Shown: positions 8,020 through 32,169 of the stretch, piece by piece
Layout: every line of letters begins with the position of its first letter
Position numbering within the stretch: the stretch's first letter is position 1
Notes under the pieces: model-generated
Databases searched by the model: none
What the model was told of the DNA's origin: nothing
The model's input: only the letters and a program-made list of their open reading frames with translations
Source: Desulfobulbaceae bacterium
GTDB lineage: Bacteria > Desulfobacterota > Desulfobulbia > Desulfobulbales > VMSU01
Direction of reading: 5' to 3'
Assembly: GCA_013792005.1 (NCBI GenBank)
Contig: VMSU01000082.1
Span: 1 to 32,169 of the forward strand
Length of the DNA: 32,169 nt
Position numbers and translations under genes: made by a program

Positions 8020-11000
8020 ATGACCACAAAGAAAAACTCCATAGCTAAACGTAACGTCGCAAAATCTAAGCATACGCTTGACGAGAAGCTTGATAGTGGC
8101 TCCAGTCAAGATCAGTCAACTGAGAAACGGAGCACGAAAACAAAGAAAGGAGACCTTCCCGCCACTTCGGTGGATTTTCCGATTGTTGGCATCGGGGCCT
8201 CTGCCGGAGGCCTCTCGGCCTATGAGGCCTTTTTTTCCGGGATGCCTGCCGATATCGATCCGGACATGGCCTTTGTTCTGGTGCCGCATCTGGCTCCTGA
8301 CCACAAGAGTTACCTTCGTGATCTGATCCAACGCTTAACCCGAATGCAGGTTTTCGAGGCCGAGGATGGGGTGACTGTCAAACCTAACTGTGTGTATATT
8401 ATTCCTCCTAACCGTGACATGGCCTTTATGAAAGGCAAGTTGCAGTTGTTGAAACCGGTATCTCCGCATGGACAGCGATTGCCGATTGATTTTTTCTTTC
8501 GTTCTTTGGCTCAGGATCGGCGTGAAAAAGCGATCTGTGTCGTTCTCTCTGGCACAGGACGTGATGGCATGATGGGGGCACGGGAGGTTAAGGGCGAGGG
8601 TGGTATGGTCATGGCCCAGCAACCTGAATCTGCTGAATACGATGGTATGCCGTGTAGTGCCATTGCCACCGGCTTGGTGGACTATATTCTGCCCCCTGCT
8701 GAAATGCCGGAGCAATTGATTCTCTATGCCTCCCATTTTTTTCATAATAGGACCAGATCATTTGTTCCTTTATCTTCCAGGGGGGGAGATGTCTTCAATA
8801 AAATTTTTGTGTTGCTTCGAGACCAGACCGGGCATGATTTTTCCGAATATAAAGAGAATACTATTTTTCGACGAGTGGAACGGCGGATGGTTGTTCACCA
8901 GATCGAACGGATTGACGAATATATTCAGTATTTGCAGTGTAACCCGGTTGAGACTCAGGCCCTTTTTTGTGATCTCCTGATTGGGGTTACCAGTTTTTTT
9001 CGGGATCCTGACTCGTTTGCCGTGCTGGCTTCCCACATCAGATCACAATTTTTTACCCATAACCCAACCGCTGTCACAATTAGGGTATGGGTTCCGGCCT
9101 GTTCCACTGGTGAAGAGGCCTATTCCATCGCCATCCTGCTTCATGAGCAAATGGATGCGCTGCATCAACATTTTAAGGTTCAGATCTTTGCTACCGATAT
9201 CGATAGTCATGCCATTGAAATGGCCCGCTTGGGAACGTATCCGGTGAGTATTGCCAGAGATATTTCTGCTGAGCGGTTGGCAAAATTTTTTACTTTGCAA
9301 GCCGACGGCAATACCTATCGCATTAATAAGGGTATCCGCGATATGCTGGTTTTTTCCGAGCAGGATGTGATCAGAGACCCACCTTTTTCCAAACTTGATC
9401 TGGTCAGTTGCCGCAACTTGTTGATCTACATGAGCAGTGCGTTGCAGAAGAAGCTGATCGCTTTATTTCACTATGCCTTGAATTCGGGAGGCCTTCTTTT
9501 TTTAGGTACGTCTGAAAGTGTGGGCGATTTAAGGGGTCTCTTTATTTCTCTTGATCGTAAGGCTAAACTCTACCAGAGCAAAGATAGTGCTCTTGGCGAA
9601 CAGCGCCATGCATTGAGGAAATTCATCAAGCCCATGATGGGAGATGAGGTTGCACCACAAGATATCGGTCCTGCTTATAGCGGCAGAAGGCTGACCCGAC
9701 GTGAGTTGGTCGAGCGAGTTCTGTTGCAGCATTACACTCCGGCCAGCATTTTGGTGAACAAAGCAGGAGAGATCCTTTATGTTCATGGCCGCACCGGCAG
9801 GTATTTGGAAATGGCTGCGGGCGATATCGGAGTCAATGTCCTGAAAATGGCGCGTGAAGGGCTTCGTCGCGACTTGATCACCGCCTTGCACACAGCGATC
9901 ACTCAGCAAGAGACGGTGAGGCGCTCTGGTCTCAGGGTCAAAACTAACGGCGATTTCAGTGTTGTTAATCTGACGGTGACTCCGGTGGTTCTAGGTTTTG
10001 AAGAGTCCAGCACTTCGGCTCTGCTCAGTCAGGGTAATCTGAGTGTGTCGGGGGAGCCTGGTGTCAGTGAATTCAGGGCGAGGCGTGAGGTGCCTACTGA
10101 TCCGTTCTTGTACTTGATCATTGTAGAAGAGGTCGGGGAGGTGGATGAGGCACTAGCCAGCAAGGTTAGTTTAGGGGATCTTGCAGAAGCTGCGGAAATG
10201 TCCCCTGATGCTCAAGCGCTCATCTCTTCCCTGCGCCAAGAACTGCGGGCCAAGGAGGAATATCTGCAGAGTGCCACCGAAGAACTGGAGGCCTCAGGTG
10301 AGGAGATGCAGTCTGTTAACGAGGAGCTTCAATCTTCAAACGAGGAGCTCGAGACCTCTAAAGAGGAGCTGCAATCAATCAACGAGGAGTTGACCACAGT
10401 CAATACTGAGCTGCATAACAAGGTTGTCGATTTGTTGCGGTCCAACAATGACTTGAACAACCTGCTTGCCGGTACCGGCGTCGGCACTATCTTTGTGGAT
10501 CAGAAGATGCTCATTCAGCGCTTCACCCCTGCCGCCTGTCTGCTGGTCAATCTGATCCCGTCAGATGTGGGCCGACCTGTGGGACATACGGTAACCAATC
10601 TGGTGAACTATACTAACTTGGAGGAGGATGTGAAGGCGGTACTTGATAGTTTGGTGCCAAGAGATATTGAAGTGAAAAGCAAGTCGGGAGCTTGGTTCTT
10701 GATGTCCATCCGGCCGTATCGCACCCTGGAGAATGTGGCTGAAGGAGCGGTTATCAATTTTGTGGAGATTACCAAGATGGTAGACGCCCAGGAATCATTG
10801 CGGCGCTTGGCGGTGGTGGTCAATGATTCCCACGATGCCATTACCATGCAGGATCTGGCCGGACGTATTTTGGCCTGGAATTCCGCAGCCCAAAGAATGT
10901 ACGGTTGGACCGAGGCCGAGGCGCTGGCAATGAATATCCGGGAATTGATCCCTGAGAGTTTACGGGATGAGGCGATGGAAAAGGTTCAGCAGCTTATTTG

Positions 11001-11163
11001 CGCGGAAAAGATTCTGCCTTATACAACTCAAAGGCTCACCAAAGATGGCCAGAATCGTACTGTATCGATTACCGCTACCGCCCTTTTGGACAAGGACGGG
11101 AAAGTCTATGCCATTGCCACAACGGAACGCAGTCAAGGTCTGGAAATTCAGAGGAGAGGATGA
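8020..11163 (+). CDS. CheB-CheR-PAS fusion chemosensory protein
   Basis: This 1047-aa soluble protein has, in order: a low-complexity Lys/Ser N-terminus (1-50); a CheB methylesterase domain (52-235) with catalytic Ser61 in GASAGG, His90 in VPHLAPDH and Asp182 in GTGRDG; a CheR methyltransferase domain (258-520) with the SAM-binding segment VWVPACSTGEEAYSIAI and the NLLIY motif; a PAS-like region (560-700); a long EEL-repeat coiled coil (733-815); and two PAS domains (817-925, 930-1040). It has no CheB receiver domain and no transmembrane helix, and it ends without a kinase domain. A kinase follows 162 bp downstream and is the likely partner. Such fusions occur in many environmental bacteria; here no other chemotaxis gene is visible, so a signalling role other than flagellar chemotaxis is plausible. 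Confidence 0.93.
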   Translation: MTTKKNSIAKRNVAKSKHTLDEKLDSGSSQDQSTEKRSTKTKKGDLPATSVDFPIVGIGASAGGLSAYEAFFSGMPADIDPDMAFVLVPHLAPDHKSYLRDLIQRLTRMQVFEAEDGVTVKPNCVYIIPPNRDMAFMKGKLQLLKPVSPHGQRLPIDFFFRSLAQDRREKAICVVLSGTGRDGMMGAREVKGEGGMVMAQQPESAEYDGMPCSAIATGLVDYILPPAEMPEQLILYASHFFHNRTRSFVPLSSRGGDVFNKIFVLLRDQTGHDFSEYKENTIFRRVERRMVVHQIERIDEYIQYLQCNPVETQALFCDLLIGVTSFFRDPDSFAVLASHIRSQFFTHNPTAVTIRVWVPACSTGEEAYSIAILLHEQMDALHQHFKVQIFATDIDSHAIEMARLGTYPVSIARDISAERLAKFFTLQADGNTYRINKGIRDMLVFSEQDVIRDPPFSKLDLVSCRNLLIYMSSALQKKLIALFHYALNSGGLLFLGTSESVGDLRGLFISLDRKAKLYQSKDSALGEQRHALRKFIKPMMGDEVAPQDIGPAYSGRRLTRRELVERVLLQHYTPASILVNKAGEILYVHGRTGRYLEMAAGDIGVNVLKMAREGLRRDLITALHTAITQQETVRRSGLRVKTNGDFSVVNLTVTPVVLGFEESSTSALLSQGNLSVSGEPGVSEFRARREVPTDPFLYLIIVEEVGEVDEALASKVSLGDLAEAAEMSPDAQALISSLRQELRAKEEYLQSATEELEASGEEMQSVNEELQSSNEELETSKEELQSINEELTTVNTELHNKVVDLLRSNNDLNNLLAGTGVGTIFVDQKMLIQRFTPAACLLVNLIPSDVGRPVGHTVTNLVNYTNLEEDVKAVLDSLVPRDIEVKSKSGAWFLMSIRPYRTLENVAEGAVINFVEITKMVDAQESLRRLAVVVNDSHDAITMQDLAGRILAWNSAAQRMYGWTEAEALAMNIRELIPESLRDEAMEKVQQLICAEKILPYTTQRLTKDGQNRTVSITATALLDKDGKVYAIATTERSQGLEIQRRG

Positions 11164-29020: not shown

Positions 29021-29503
29021 TTAGGAGTGAGAAGATTGCATGTTTAAGAGGTTTTCGACTTGTTGTGGGGTCAGGTAATTTCTCTTGATGGCAATCTGGC
29101 CAAACTTCTTGTCGCTCTTATCGCTCTCACCACTCTGGCAGAACAGAATTTGGGCAATATCCTCAAGTGTCAGCCATTTCTGTATACGGGCCAGTTCGCC
29201 GATCCTGCTTATGTTTGCCATGTTCTCCGGGGCGTGAACATCAAGTTCATTTTCGAGCAGTTCTTCAACCGTTCCTTCAGATTGCTGTACGTCATAAAAC
29301 TCCCGCTTCAGATTGATAATCCAAGCTGGGATGGAGATGGCAAAGAAAATTACCGCAGCAATAAGGACTTTCTGCCATACATACCCTTCAACACTGACTC
29401 CAAAAGGATAGGCCAGCATCGCGAAGTAAAACATCGACATTACGATACACAACGCTGTTTTCTTCTCGGCACTGAATTTTTTGGTTGTTTTGTTAGTGTT
29501 CAT
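29021..29503 (-). CDS. Two-helix membrane protein with predicted sigma-54 promoter, unknown
   Basis: This 160-aa protein has two transmembrane helices (about 17-36 and 43-65). Its C-terminal cytoplasmic half has two similar helical segments, IQKWLTLEDIAQIL (107-120) and FGQIAIKRNYLTPQQVENLL (134-153). The last pattern resembles small repeats found in type II secretion/pilus ATPase N-termini and signalling proteins, but I cannot name a family. The frame is open to 29596, but the ATG at 29503 has AAGGAGGT just upstream. A strong sigma-54 promoter lies 90-103 bp upstream, and an ATTGCA/TGCAAT cluster lies further upstream. Expression is probably tied to the NtrC-type regulator at 30603. Confidence 0.75.
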   Translation of the reverse strand: MNTNKTTKKFSAEKKTALCIVMSMFYFAMLAYPFGVSVEGYVWQKVLIAAVIFFAISIPAWIINLKREFYDVQQSEGTVEELLENELDVHAPENMANISRIGELARIQKWLTLEDIAQILFCQSGESDKSDKKFGQIAIKRNYLTPQQVENLLNMQSSHS

Positions 29504-29590
29504 AATACACCTCCTTCTTGGTTTGTGTGGGTCCTTATCCCCTATTGTGGTGTTTTTCTCTCTTTTCTCTTCTCTCTTGGTTTGATAACA

Positions 29591-29608
29591 GAGCAATCAT
29601 GATGCCAA
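29591..29608 (-). promoter_or_regulatory. Candidate sigma-54 promoter (minus strand)
   Basis: On the minus strand the sequence reads TTGGCATCATGATTGCTC. The GG (-24) and GC (-12) are exactly 10 bp apart, and TGGCAT and TTGCT match the TGGCAC-N5-TTGCW consensus closely. The predicted start near 29581 leaves a leader of about 78 nt before the 160-aa membrane protein gene. Confidence 0.7.
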
Positions 29609-29741
29609 TAAATTTGTTTTGAAGGGAGTTTTTTCGAAGAGGTATATGCAATATATTGATATCGAGAGATAAATTACTTGTCGTCTGGCAGGTGTGCATG
29701 CCGGATTGTTTCATCTGTGTCCGCTAACTTGCGTTCTTTGC

Positions 29742-29796
29742 TCCCTAAAATTGCAAATATGCAATTTTAGGGATTGCACGATTGCATACCTGCAAT
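29742..29796. promoter_or_regulatory. Palindromic enhancer-like cluster (ATTGCA/TGCAAT half-sites)
   Basis: A palindrome has 14-bp arms (29742-29755 and 29760-29773) around AATA. Its inner arms read AATTGCA and TGCAATT. A second site, ATTGCA-TACC-TGCAAT (29781-29796), uses the same half-sites and the same 4-bp gap, with its centre 31 bp away (about three turns). An extra ATTGCA lies at 29773-29778. The cluster is about 160-215 bp upstream of the minus-strand sigma-54 start, the usual place for an enhancer, and about 400-460 bp from the plus-strand one. No T-run follows, so a terminator is unlikely. Confidence 0.65.
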
Positions 29797-30173
29797 GTAT
29801 CAGGGGAAACAGATGGTTTTGCTTCTGATTTTGCCAATTTTTGTACTCTGGGTAAATAAAAGTGAAGATTACGTGTCTAAGATAATCATAGGGCTAATGC
29901 TGAAAAACAAGGTCACATTTTCTGCATCTGTAGCATCATTCTTACTGATCCTGATAAGATCCTCACAGGCTTATTAATAGTGATATATCCTTCTGTTTCA
30001 CCAGGTTTGTGGAGATTTGGAGTTTTTTGATTGTGCCTGGCCAGGGTGCATCATGTTCATTTTGGCGGAAAGCCGGAATGAGGGATTTGCTTGTTGACAA
30101 CCGAGTGAGAAAGGGGAGGAAGGGGCCGCACGCTGGCAGGAGAAATCACTGACTGTTGCTGTGTGCTGTTTGA
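29797..30173. other. Intergenic stretch, no gene recognised
   Basis: This part of the divergent region between the 160-aa membrane protein and the NifX-like gene has an open frame at 29774-29977 that is hydrophobic but lacks a ribosome site. I see no RNA gene or repeat beyond the flanking sites. Confidence 0.5.
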
Positions 30174-30191
30174 TAGGCACTACTATTGCAT
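30174..30191 (+). promoter_or_regulatory. Candidate sigma-54 promoter of the NifX-like gene
   Basis: TAGGCACTACTATTGCAT has GG (30176-30177) and GC (30188-30189) exactly 10 bp apart, with GGCAC and TTGCA as in the sigma-54 consensus. The predicted start near 30201 is 57 bp before the ATG at 30258. Confidence 0.7.
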
Positions 30192-30257
30192 TGAAAATGA
30201 CTCACAATTGATAAAAAATGCCGCCTGTTATGAAAATTCATTGCAAGAGTGATACTT

Positions 30258-30566
30258 ATGAAAACCACAGCGATAGCTTTGTTTGGCTCACGGATCTCCC
30301 CCCGTTTTGATTGTGCTCAGGAATTTATGGTGATCACAAGTTCTGAAAACGCCGTGACAGGGAAACATATCGAAACTATCCGGGAGGATATGCCAATTAT
30401 GAAGGTACGGCGTTTAACTGCTCTTAAGGTGGATACCTTAATCTGCGGAGGGGTTGATGAATCTTCACGTGAACATCTTCTCTCCCACGGGATCAAGATC
30501 CTTGCCAATAAAAAAGGAGAAGTAGAAGAGAATGTTTCCAGTTATATTACTTCTTCGTCTGATTGA
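30258..30566 (+). CDS. NifX/NifB-C-terminal-like cofactor-binding protein
   Basis: This 102-aa protein belongs to the dinitrogenase iron-molybdenum cofactor family. Visible words are ALFGSRISPRFDCAQEFMVI near the start, CGGVDESS in the middle and LLSHGIKILANKKGEVEENV at the end, the expected fold length. No nif genes are present, so it is probably one of the stand-alone family members of unknown role. A GTG start lies 3 codons upstream, but AAGAG 8-10 nt before the ATG at 30258 favours the ATG. A sigma-54 promoter lies upstream, and an NtrC-type regulator gene converges 36 bp downstream. Confidence 0.85.
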   Translation: MKTTAIALFGSRISPRFDCAQEFMVITSSENAVTGKHIETIREDMPIMKVRRLTALKVDTLICGGVDESSREHLLSHGIKILANKKGEVEENVSSYITSSSD

Positions 30567-30602: not shown

Positions 30603-31970
30603 TTAACCCTCCTGATATTTTTTTAGTTTCCTCCATAAAGATACACGGTCAATCCCAAGCACATTTGCTGCCTTCGTTTTGTTTCCTTCAACTGTTTTAA
30701 GAACAGATAATATGTGGTCACGCTCATTTTCTTCAAGGCTACAGGTCTGTCGTTCTGCTTGAATTGGGTGTGTCGATATCCGTTTGTACTTGTTGAGTTC
30801 TTGCGGTAGATGGTGAAGTTTAATTTCCGGTTCATTGCTCATTGCCAGTGACCGTTCAATGATATTTTCAAGTTCTCTGACATTCCCGGGGTAATCATAT
30901 TCTTGGAGGGCGGTCAGGGCTTCAGTTGTGATAGATTTCATCGTGTTGTCAACTATCGGATATTTTGCTAGAAAATGGCGCACGAGTTGTGGAATGTCAT
31001 CTTTTCTGTCGCGCAAAGGAGGGATGTTGAGTGAAACAACATTTAATCGATAGTATAGATCTTGGCGAAACCGTCCAGCCTTGACCTCATCTTGCAGGTC
31101 TTTGTTCGTCGCGGCTACTATGCGAATATCAATTGGAATTTCAGTTGTTCCGCCGACTCTGATGATCTTTTTTTCCTGCAAAACACGTAGGAGTTTCACC
31201 TGCATTGTTACCGGAATCTCACCAATCTCATCAAGAAGGACCACCCCCTCGTCTGCCGATTCAAGCAAGCCTTTGCGCCCTTTGCTGGCCCCAGTGAAGG
31301 CGTCTTTTTCGTGACCGAAAAGCTCGTTGAGCATTAGCTCTTCATTGAGCGCTGCACAGTTAATTGGCAAGAACCGTTTGTTGGCCCTGGGACTCAGTTC
31401 ATAGATTGTTCGGGCAACCAGCTCTTTTCCTGTGCCTGTTTCACCGTGGATAAGAACGTTACAGTCCAACTGAGCGACTTGGGCAATATCATCTTTTAGT
31501 TTTAAAATGGCAGAGTTGTGCCCGACGAATTGGGTCACCCCTTTTTTTGCCATGATCCGCTGTTTTAATCTGGTTATTTCATTTTTAAGAACAACTTTTT
31601 CCAGGGCTTTTTTTACCAGAATACGTAATTCTTTCAACTTGATTGGTTTTGGCAGGTAATAGAAAGCGCCTTTGGCCATGGCATCAACAGCAGAGTTGAC
31701 AGTGGCATAGCCAGTGACGATAATTACTTCCGCCTCCGGTAGCATATTTTGTGCTGCCTCCATGACCTGCACACCATCAATGTCTGCCATTTTAAGATCA
31801 GTAATTATCAGGTCAAAGTGATCACGAGAAATTTTGTCAATGGCCTCCATTCCGTTCGGCGCTGTTGCTACGGAATATCCATCGGCGTTAAGGATGTGGC
31901 TTATGTTCTGAAGGTTGATAACTTCATCGTCAACAACCAATATTCGTAAATCTTTATTGTCGGACATCAT
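30603..31970 (-). CDS. NtrC-family sigma-54-dependent response regulator
   Basis: This 455-aa activator has three domains. The receiver (about 8-125) has Asp58 in LIITDLKM and Lys108 in PKPIKLKEL. The AAA+ domain (about 147-385) has Walker A GETGTGKE (176-183), the sigma-54 loop DAFTGA (223-228), Walker B VVLLDEIGE and the arginine-finger region FRQDLYYRLNV. The C-terminal Fis-type helix-turn-helix (about 426-451) has GNKTKAANVLGIDRVSLWRKL. The sigma-54 loop is usually GAFTGA; here the first Gly is Asp. AGGA lies 4 nt before the ATG. It follows a kinase gene by 27 bp and is the best candidate to act on the sigma-54 promoters beside it. Confidence 0.95.
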   Translation of the reverse strand: MMSDNKDLRILVVDDEVINLQNISHILNADGYSVATAPNGMEAIDKISRDHFDLIITDLKMADIDGVQVMEAAQNMLPEAEVIIVTGYATVNSAVDAMAKGAFYYLPKPIKLKELRILVKKALEKVVLKNEITRLKQRIMAKKGVTQFVGHNSAILKLKDDIAQVAQLDCNVLIHGETGTGKELVARTIYELSPRANKRFLPINCAALNEELMLNELFGHEKDAFTGASKGRKGLLESADEGVVLLDEIGEIPVTMQVKLLRVLQEKKIIRVGGTTEIPIDIRIVAATNKDLQDEVKAGRFRQDLYYRLNVVSLNIPPLRDRKDDIPQLVRHFLAKYPIVDNTMKSITTEALTALQEYDYPGNVRELENIIERSLAMSNEPEIKLHHLPQELNKYKRISTHPIQAERQTCSLEENERDHILSVLKTVEGNKTKAANVLGIDRVSLWRKLKKYQEG

Positions 31971-31997
31971 TTGTTCCTATCTCGTTTAACGGTATTG

Positions 31998-32169
31998 TCA
32001 TGCTGTAGTTTGTCCCTCGCTTGATGGTAACGTGATGTCAAATCTGGTTCCCTTCCCCGGTGCACTTTGCACCACAATACTTCCTTTGTGTTTTTTAATA
32101 ATTCCGTAAACAACAGCTAAGCCCAGTCCCGTTCCTTCTCCCACCTTTTTGGTGGTGTAGAATGGATCA
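31998..32169 (-). CDS. Histidine kinase, C-terminal end (N-terminus off window)
   Basis: The minus strand reads from the right edge to a TGA at 31998-32000. The 56 residues visible are the end of a kinase ATPase domain: [20 protein letters not shown] holds the G2 box, then [20 protein letters not shown]. The order and 27-bp spacing to the NtrC-type regulator show a two-component pair, with the kinase upstream. The sensor part lies outside the window. Confidence 0.9.

Follow-up and report, generated by a model that had tools for sequence, protein, structure and literature searches.

In enhancers of the NtrC/ZraR type, helically phased dyads stand in tandem, usually 100-400 bp ahead of a -24/-12 promoter. 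The products of the orp operons carry a dinitrogenase-cofactor (NifX/ORP) domain, and the CbcBA system combines multihaem c-type and b-type subunits under the control of a sigma-54 regulator, BccR, which is a response regulator. In D. vulgaris, the orp operons and their activator DVU2106 are organised around two divergent sigma-54 promoters with palindromic sites between them (PMC3897727, PMC4641369); DVU2106 is a one-component activator with a GAFTDA loop, and the ORP complex has been assigned to cell division (PMC4641369). CbcBA of Geobacter sulfurreducens is an inner-membrane bc-type cytochrome (PMC12307469).

The locus considered here lies in a window of 32,169 nt, the whole stretch of DNA analysed, from a Desulfobulbaceae bacterium. 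Here two sigma-54 promoters point outwards from a cluster of dyads, towards a small membrane protein gene on one side and a NifX-like gene on the other. Searches with several typed forms of the operator string found no published description of it in open-licence papers.

The divergent control region and its genes

The features of the region are as follows.

29021..29503, minus strand: small membrane protein, 160 aa, in which two TM helices are predicted, with an MshEN-like domain at the C-terminus
29592..29607, minus strand: sigma-54 promoter TGGCATCATGATTGCT of the membrane protein gene (consensus match; conserved block upstream of paralogues and orthologues)
29742..29773, no strand: perfect 14-bp-arm palindrome around the first dyad (arms 29742-29755 and 29760-29773, exact)
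29750..29796, no strand: operator (enhancer) cluster of ATTGCA-N4-TGCAAT dyads (motif scan; same spacing in four other clusters; block conserved in comparison with G257, a sister species)
29750-29765: first exact dyad, ATTGCAAATATGCAAT
29773-29788: third dyad, overlapping the second, with one mismatch in the TTGCA-N4-TGCAA core
29781-29796: second exact dyad, ATTGCATACCTGCAAT, 31 bp from the first
30175..30190, plus strand: sigma-54 promoter AGGCACTACTATTGCA of the NifX-like gene (consensus match; counterpart in G257)
30258..30566, plus strand: NifX-like gene, 102 aa, Nitro_FeMo-Co domain PF02579, one of two paralogues
30603..31970, minus strand: NtrC-type response regulator, 455 aa, receiver-AAA+-HTH_8 with a DAFTGA loop, convergent neighbour
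31998..32169, minus strand: 3' end of a histidine kinase, cut by the contig end (read from sequence)

The sequence-only reading had described two outward-pointing GG-N10-GC sigma-54 promoters, and both are present where it placed them. They have the TGGCA...TTGC context of sigma-54-dependent promoters, each matching 10 of the 12 consensus positions (TGGCACG-N4-TTGCW). Only three sites in the 32-kb window are as good, two of them within this 754-bp intergenic region; an approximately dinucleotide-preserving shuffle of the region gives approximate chance expectations of 0.07 promoters of such quality and 0.003 exact dyads. The half-site cluster, the 14-bp-arm palindrome and the second site 31 bp away were likewise found at the positions originally given, the palindrome being without conservation in the paralogous clusters outside its TTGCA/TGCAA half-sites. 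In seven regions upstream of paralogues and orthologues of the membrane protein, the sigma-54 element is the clearest conserved block besides the ribosome site. The check proposed with that reading, conservation of the half-sites and GG/GC elements upstream of orthologues, thus came out in its favour, and the recurrence of clusters beside orthologues and paralogues supports ATTGCA-N4-TGCAAT as the operator. As the promoters and paired operators are conserved, they are predicted to be functional, and comparison between genomes identifies the region as a divergent sigma-54 control region.

Translation of the membrane protein most likely starts at the ATG at 29503, giving 160 aa, rather than at the TTG of a 191-aa frame; a good ribosome site precedes this ATG. 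The protein scores 20.9 bits against NF053729 (MshEN), under the curated cut-off of 38, and does not combine a score above this threshold with both conserved motifs, as an MshEN c-di-GMP receptor would; its designation as a certain c-di-GMP receptor was dropped on account of the score. In a structural model of modest confidence (mean pLDDT 64), the C-terminal part appears to match the MshEN domains of PilF and MshE in fold, and sequence searches for relatives among solved structures returned none that were convincing. The NifX-like protein belongs to PF02579, scoring 37.7 bits against a gathering score of 26.3. Downstream of its paralogue elsewhere in the genome (locus L007, 7347-9440) come an FmdE-family gene and one for a molybdopterin-binding domain, which hints at a connection with molybdenum or tungsten. 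The kinase fragment is likely to be the partner of the response regulator, whose sigma-54 contact loop is DAFTGA rather than GAFTGA, a natural change of the first glycine. Elsewhere in the window, 8020-11163 encodes a CheB-CheR-PAS fusion protein of 1047 aa.

Distribution of the operator and its targets

Across the window's own assembly (4.0 Mb in 252 contigs) there are seven exact dyads, all within five clusters, on contigs C82 (the window), C180, C223, C229 and C3, each of which has two dyads 31 bp apart. The remaining one-mismatch sites, six in number, are unpaired; five are inside reading frames, five are without a sigma-54 site in their vicinity, and they look like background. The small membrane protein gene is present in exactly four copies and the NifX-like gene in two, every one of them at an operator cluster. 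All six target genes have a sigma-54 promoter, although on C180 that of the membrane protein is 1.54 kb from the operator and the score of the NifX promoter is 9, not 10. The target of the fifth cluster, on C3 (L006 1-480), lies beyond the contig end: the contig stops approximately 210 bp away from the operator, and neither a good sigma-54 site nor a fragment of the membrane protein is present on it.

The membrane protein is restricted to nine of the 258 genomes of the class, two named relatives being a Desulfobulbaceae MAG and a Deltaproteobacteria MAG. In G257 the elements stand in the same divergent order (NifX-like gene, promoter, operators, promoter, membrane protein), with TGGCACTACTGTTGCA ahead of the NifX-like gene in the orthologous region on its contig C62; alignment reveals that the operator and promoter blocks have been kept whilst most of the other intergenic DNA around them has diverged. 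The copies in G254 have a two-turn dyad spacing of 21-22 bp, and a -12 element of GT instead of GC. Four short membrane-protein paralogues in this genome (L047, L048 and L049) consist of the two-TM part alone, the MshEN-like domain being absent; each has operators paired at a spacing of 22 bp, together with a conserved element, TTTGGCAC...GTGTA, that reads GT rather than GC at -12.

An unbiased, class-wide search of the 258 genomes for two TTGCA-N4-TGCAA dyads 15-20 bp apart detected pairs in 23 genomes (22 besides this one), against three matches to the reversed pattern used as a control. Fourteen of 23 pairs examined have a strong sigma-54 site pointing away from them within 450 bp, compared with 5.6% of random positions. 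An origin of the operator by chance was rejected on the genome-wide clustering, the class-wide pair search and the shuffle rates.

Operators in different families precede an operon encoding a seven-haem cytochrome c and a cytochrome b561, small membrane proteins, and NifX-like genes. Nearly all members of the target cytochrome c family have seven CXXCH motifs, with a C-terminal hydrophobic segment, and the partner is a Ni_hydr_CYTB protein; the class-wide target operon therefore has the multihaem c-type and b-type membrane subunits of a CbcBA-type bc cytochrome. In the window's family, the cytochrome operon can begin with the membrane-protein gene itself, as in C180, G255 and G257. Hmc-like subunits are encoded near the activator or the membrane gene in G214, G215, G254 and G256, and a PilZ-like gene, weak by Pfam, is found near several operator loci.

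In other families, a small membrane protein of some four hydrophobic segments is found under the same operator (L115, L119, L120, L121, L123, L129 and L130), taking the place of the window's two-TM protein; the one member searched had no Pfam match. The seven-haem cytochrome gene is also separated from the sigma-54 promoter by a small gene with an HTH-like, transposase-like N-terminus (L115 9145-9516; L123 5520-5918; L129 5949-6317).

The best reading of these targets is that the regulon comprises a quinone-linked membrane electron-transfer module and small accessory membrane proteins. Neither target had been assigned a role from the window itself; the class-wide targets allow this to be narrowed to a regulon with a presumed role in membrane electron transfer.

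The candidate activator

A one-component PAS-AAA+-HTH activator is encoded on another contig of the same genome (C180:5680-7041). It scores 211 bits against Sigma54_activat and 40 bits against HTH_8, and has a GAFTEA loop; the operator is linked to an AAA+ sigma-54 activator with an HTH domain, as in a bacterial enhancer-binding-protein regulon. Orthologues are present in nine of nine genomes with the membrane protein. Outside this genome, 14 of 24 distinct operator pairs have a PAS activator of this family no more than 5 kb away; almost all of the others adjoin the cytochrome operon, a NifX-like gene or the small membrane genes, in many cases where a contig ends. Regulon membership and the linkage to the PAS activator are both established by this comparison of genomes.

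Near exact operators, most activators have a nearly constant recognition helix, GI(E/D)KTTLWRKMK. The helix of G214, G216 and one of the G253 copies is instead GISTTT(L/I/M)WRKMK, and there the half-sites are partly TTTCA/TGAAA, with the 31-bp spacing kept. This covariation of helix and half-site, in three loci only, is the strongest indication available that the operator is read by the PAS protein.

The sequence-only reading had given control of the unit to the adjacent NtrC-type regulator and its kinase (30603-32169), such that the phosphorylated regulator would bind ATTGCA-N4-TGCAAT and activate both promoters. The pair does adjoin the unit in the window, and the regulator, itself a sigma-54 AAA+ activator, has a Fis-type HTH and a recognition helix broadly similar to that of the PAS activator (DRVSLWRKLKKY and EKTTLWRKMKRY, respectively). 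However, it is convergent with the NifX gene, sharing no operon with it, and has the DAFTGA loop described above, which is common to its three closest orthologues (L053, L054 and L055). Of 18 other genomes searched, only G214, G216 and G001 yielded these orthologues, which are 64-65% identical; orthologues are missing from six of the eight other genomes with the membrane protein, where the best matches are at most 50% identical, and G257, which has the same divergent unit, is among the six. The genomes searched are mostly fragmented, so these absences are soft. No operator was found near the orthologues in G214, G216 and G001, or near the more distant homologous loci examined. A two-component circuit would have its receiver-domain regulator co-inherited with the operator and targets, a pattern that was not observed. 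Distribution and operator-free orthologue loci together led us to reject the response regulator as the cognate activator, and the attribution of the unit to this pair, which is improbable, was abandoned.

Given the similarity of the recognition helices, cross-binding by the response regulator is possible, and with its adjacent position this could suggest that both activators share the operator, the PAS protein as the conserved one and the response regulator as a local recruit in this species providing a second input. Its orthologues have no associated operator, however, and nothing positive points to recruitment, making this arrangement decidedly improbable. It is most improbable that the half-sites, whose AT-rich sequence could suit a repressor or nucleoid protein and which on C3 form a cluster without a promoter on a contig fragment, merely lie between the sigma-54 promoters as the site of such a factor, as operators throughout the genome are confined to sigma-54-linked clusters, their helical-phase spacing is typical of activator enhancers, and they are linked to, and covary with, a sigma-54 activator. 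The activator is probably the one-component PAS protein, judged by co-occurrence, linkage and covariation, and the neighbouring response regulator probably stands outside the circuit.

The proposed circuit and its relation to described systems

We infer that dimers of the PAS-AAA+-Fis-type-HTH activator (C180:5680-7041) would bind the TTGCA-N4-TGCAA dyads, which are set about three helical turns (31 bp) apart, and assemble there into an ATPase ring; through looping of the DNA, the ring would then activate RNA polymerase-sigma54 at both promoters, that of the membrane protein to the left and that of the NifX-like gene to the right. The same activator and operator are predicted to run the other membrane-protein gene copies, the second NifX-like gene with its FmdE and molybdopterin-binding-domain genes, and the membrane complex of seven-haem cytochrome c and cytochrome b561. 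A C-x8-C-x3-C-type motif is conserved in the PAS domain, hence the signal may be redox or metal linked. Taken as a whole, with the divergent region, the dyads, both targets and the other copies, this PAS-activator circuit is likely to be correct.

At six loci (C180, G255, two in G253, G214 and G216) the operator follows closely on the 3' end of the activator gene, and beyond the gene's 5' end there is a second sigma-54 promoter, at 1.54-1.72 kb from the operator. The approximately 450 bp upstream of this distant promoter contain at most a two-mismatch operator site. At three of these loci (L042, L043 and L050) the operator is between convergent genes and no sigma-54 site scoring at least 10 is nearer, which suggests long-range enhancer looping over the regulator gene. 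Enhancer action across that gene is the simplest reading of the six-locus geometry, and we tentatively consider it a conserved, natural long-range enhancer, with the regulator gene inside the loop; this is a serious possibility that falls a little short of being favoured. Were the 1.6-kb geometry true, it would be a natural case of an enhancer acting across its regulator's own gene.

The comparisons indicate that this is a real, conserved sigma-54 regulon of sulfate-reducer-like bacteria, with its regulator reassigned, which would also control a membrane electron-transport complex. What was an isolated motif becomes a defined, searchable regulon of a Desulfobulbales-like class, for which an activator, an operator and targets can be named, and which suggests that a quinone-linked multihaem cytochrome complex and new small membrane proteins are under its control.

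Amongst described systems, the MshEN domains of MshE and Thermus PilF (GSPIIB) match the C-terminal domain of the membrane protein in fold and, weakly, in sequence; the membrane protein differs from them in having one degenerate MshEN domain, preceded by two TM helices. The arrangement of dyads in tandem and in helical phase is shared with NtrC/ZraR-type enhancers, whereas here the half-site is TTGCA/TGCAA, the activator lacks a receiver domain, and at some loci the enhancer is past the regulator's 3' end, approximately 1.6 kb from the promoter. Of the described cases, the orp region of D. vulgaris appears to be the nearest: compared by layout and products, it is alike in its divergent promoters, palindromes, one-component activator DVU2106 and NifX/ORP domain. 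Its targets form the ORP complex, whereas those described here encode a membrane protein and a NifX-like protein of a single domain. Against NF041136, the NifX-like genes match the C-terminal ORP portion alone, and no full-length MrpORP scored above the cut-off in the eight genomes searched; membership of the orp system was rejected on this account. CbcBA, likened here by make-up alone, resembles the core targets found across the class in being a membrane quinone oxidoreductase of multihaem c-type and b-type subunits under sigma-54 control; its regulator BccR is a response regulator, whereas the regulon described here appears to be governed by a one-component PAS activator.
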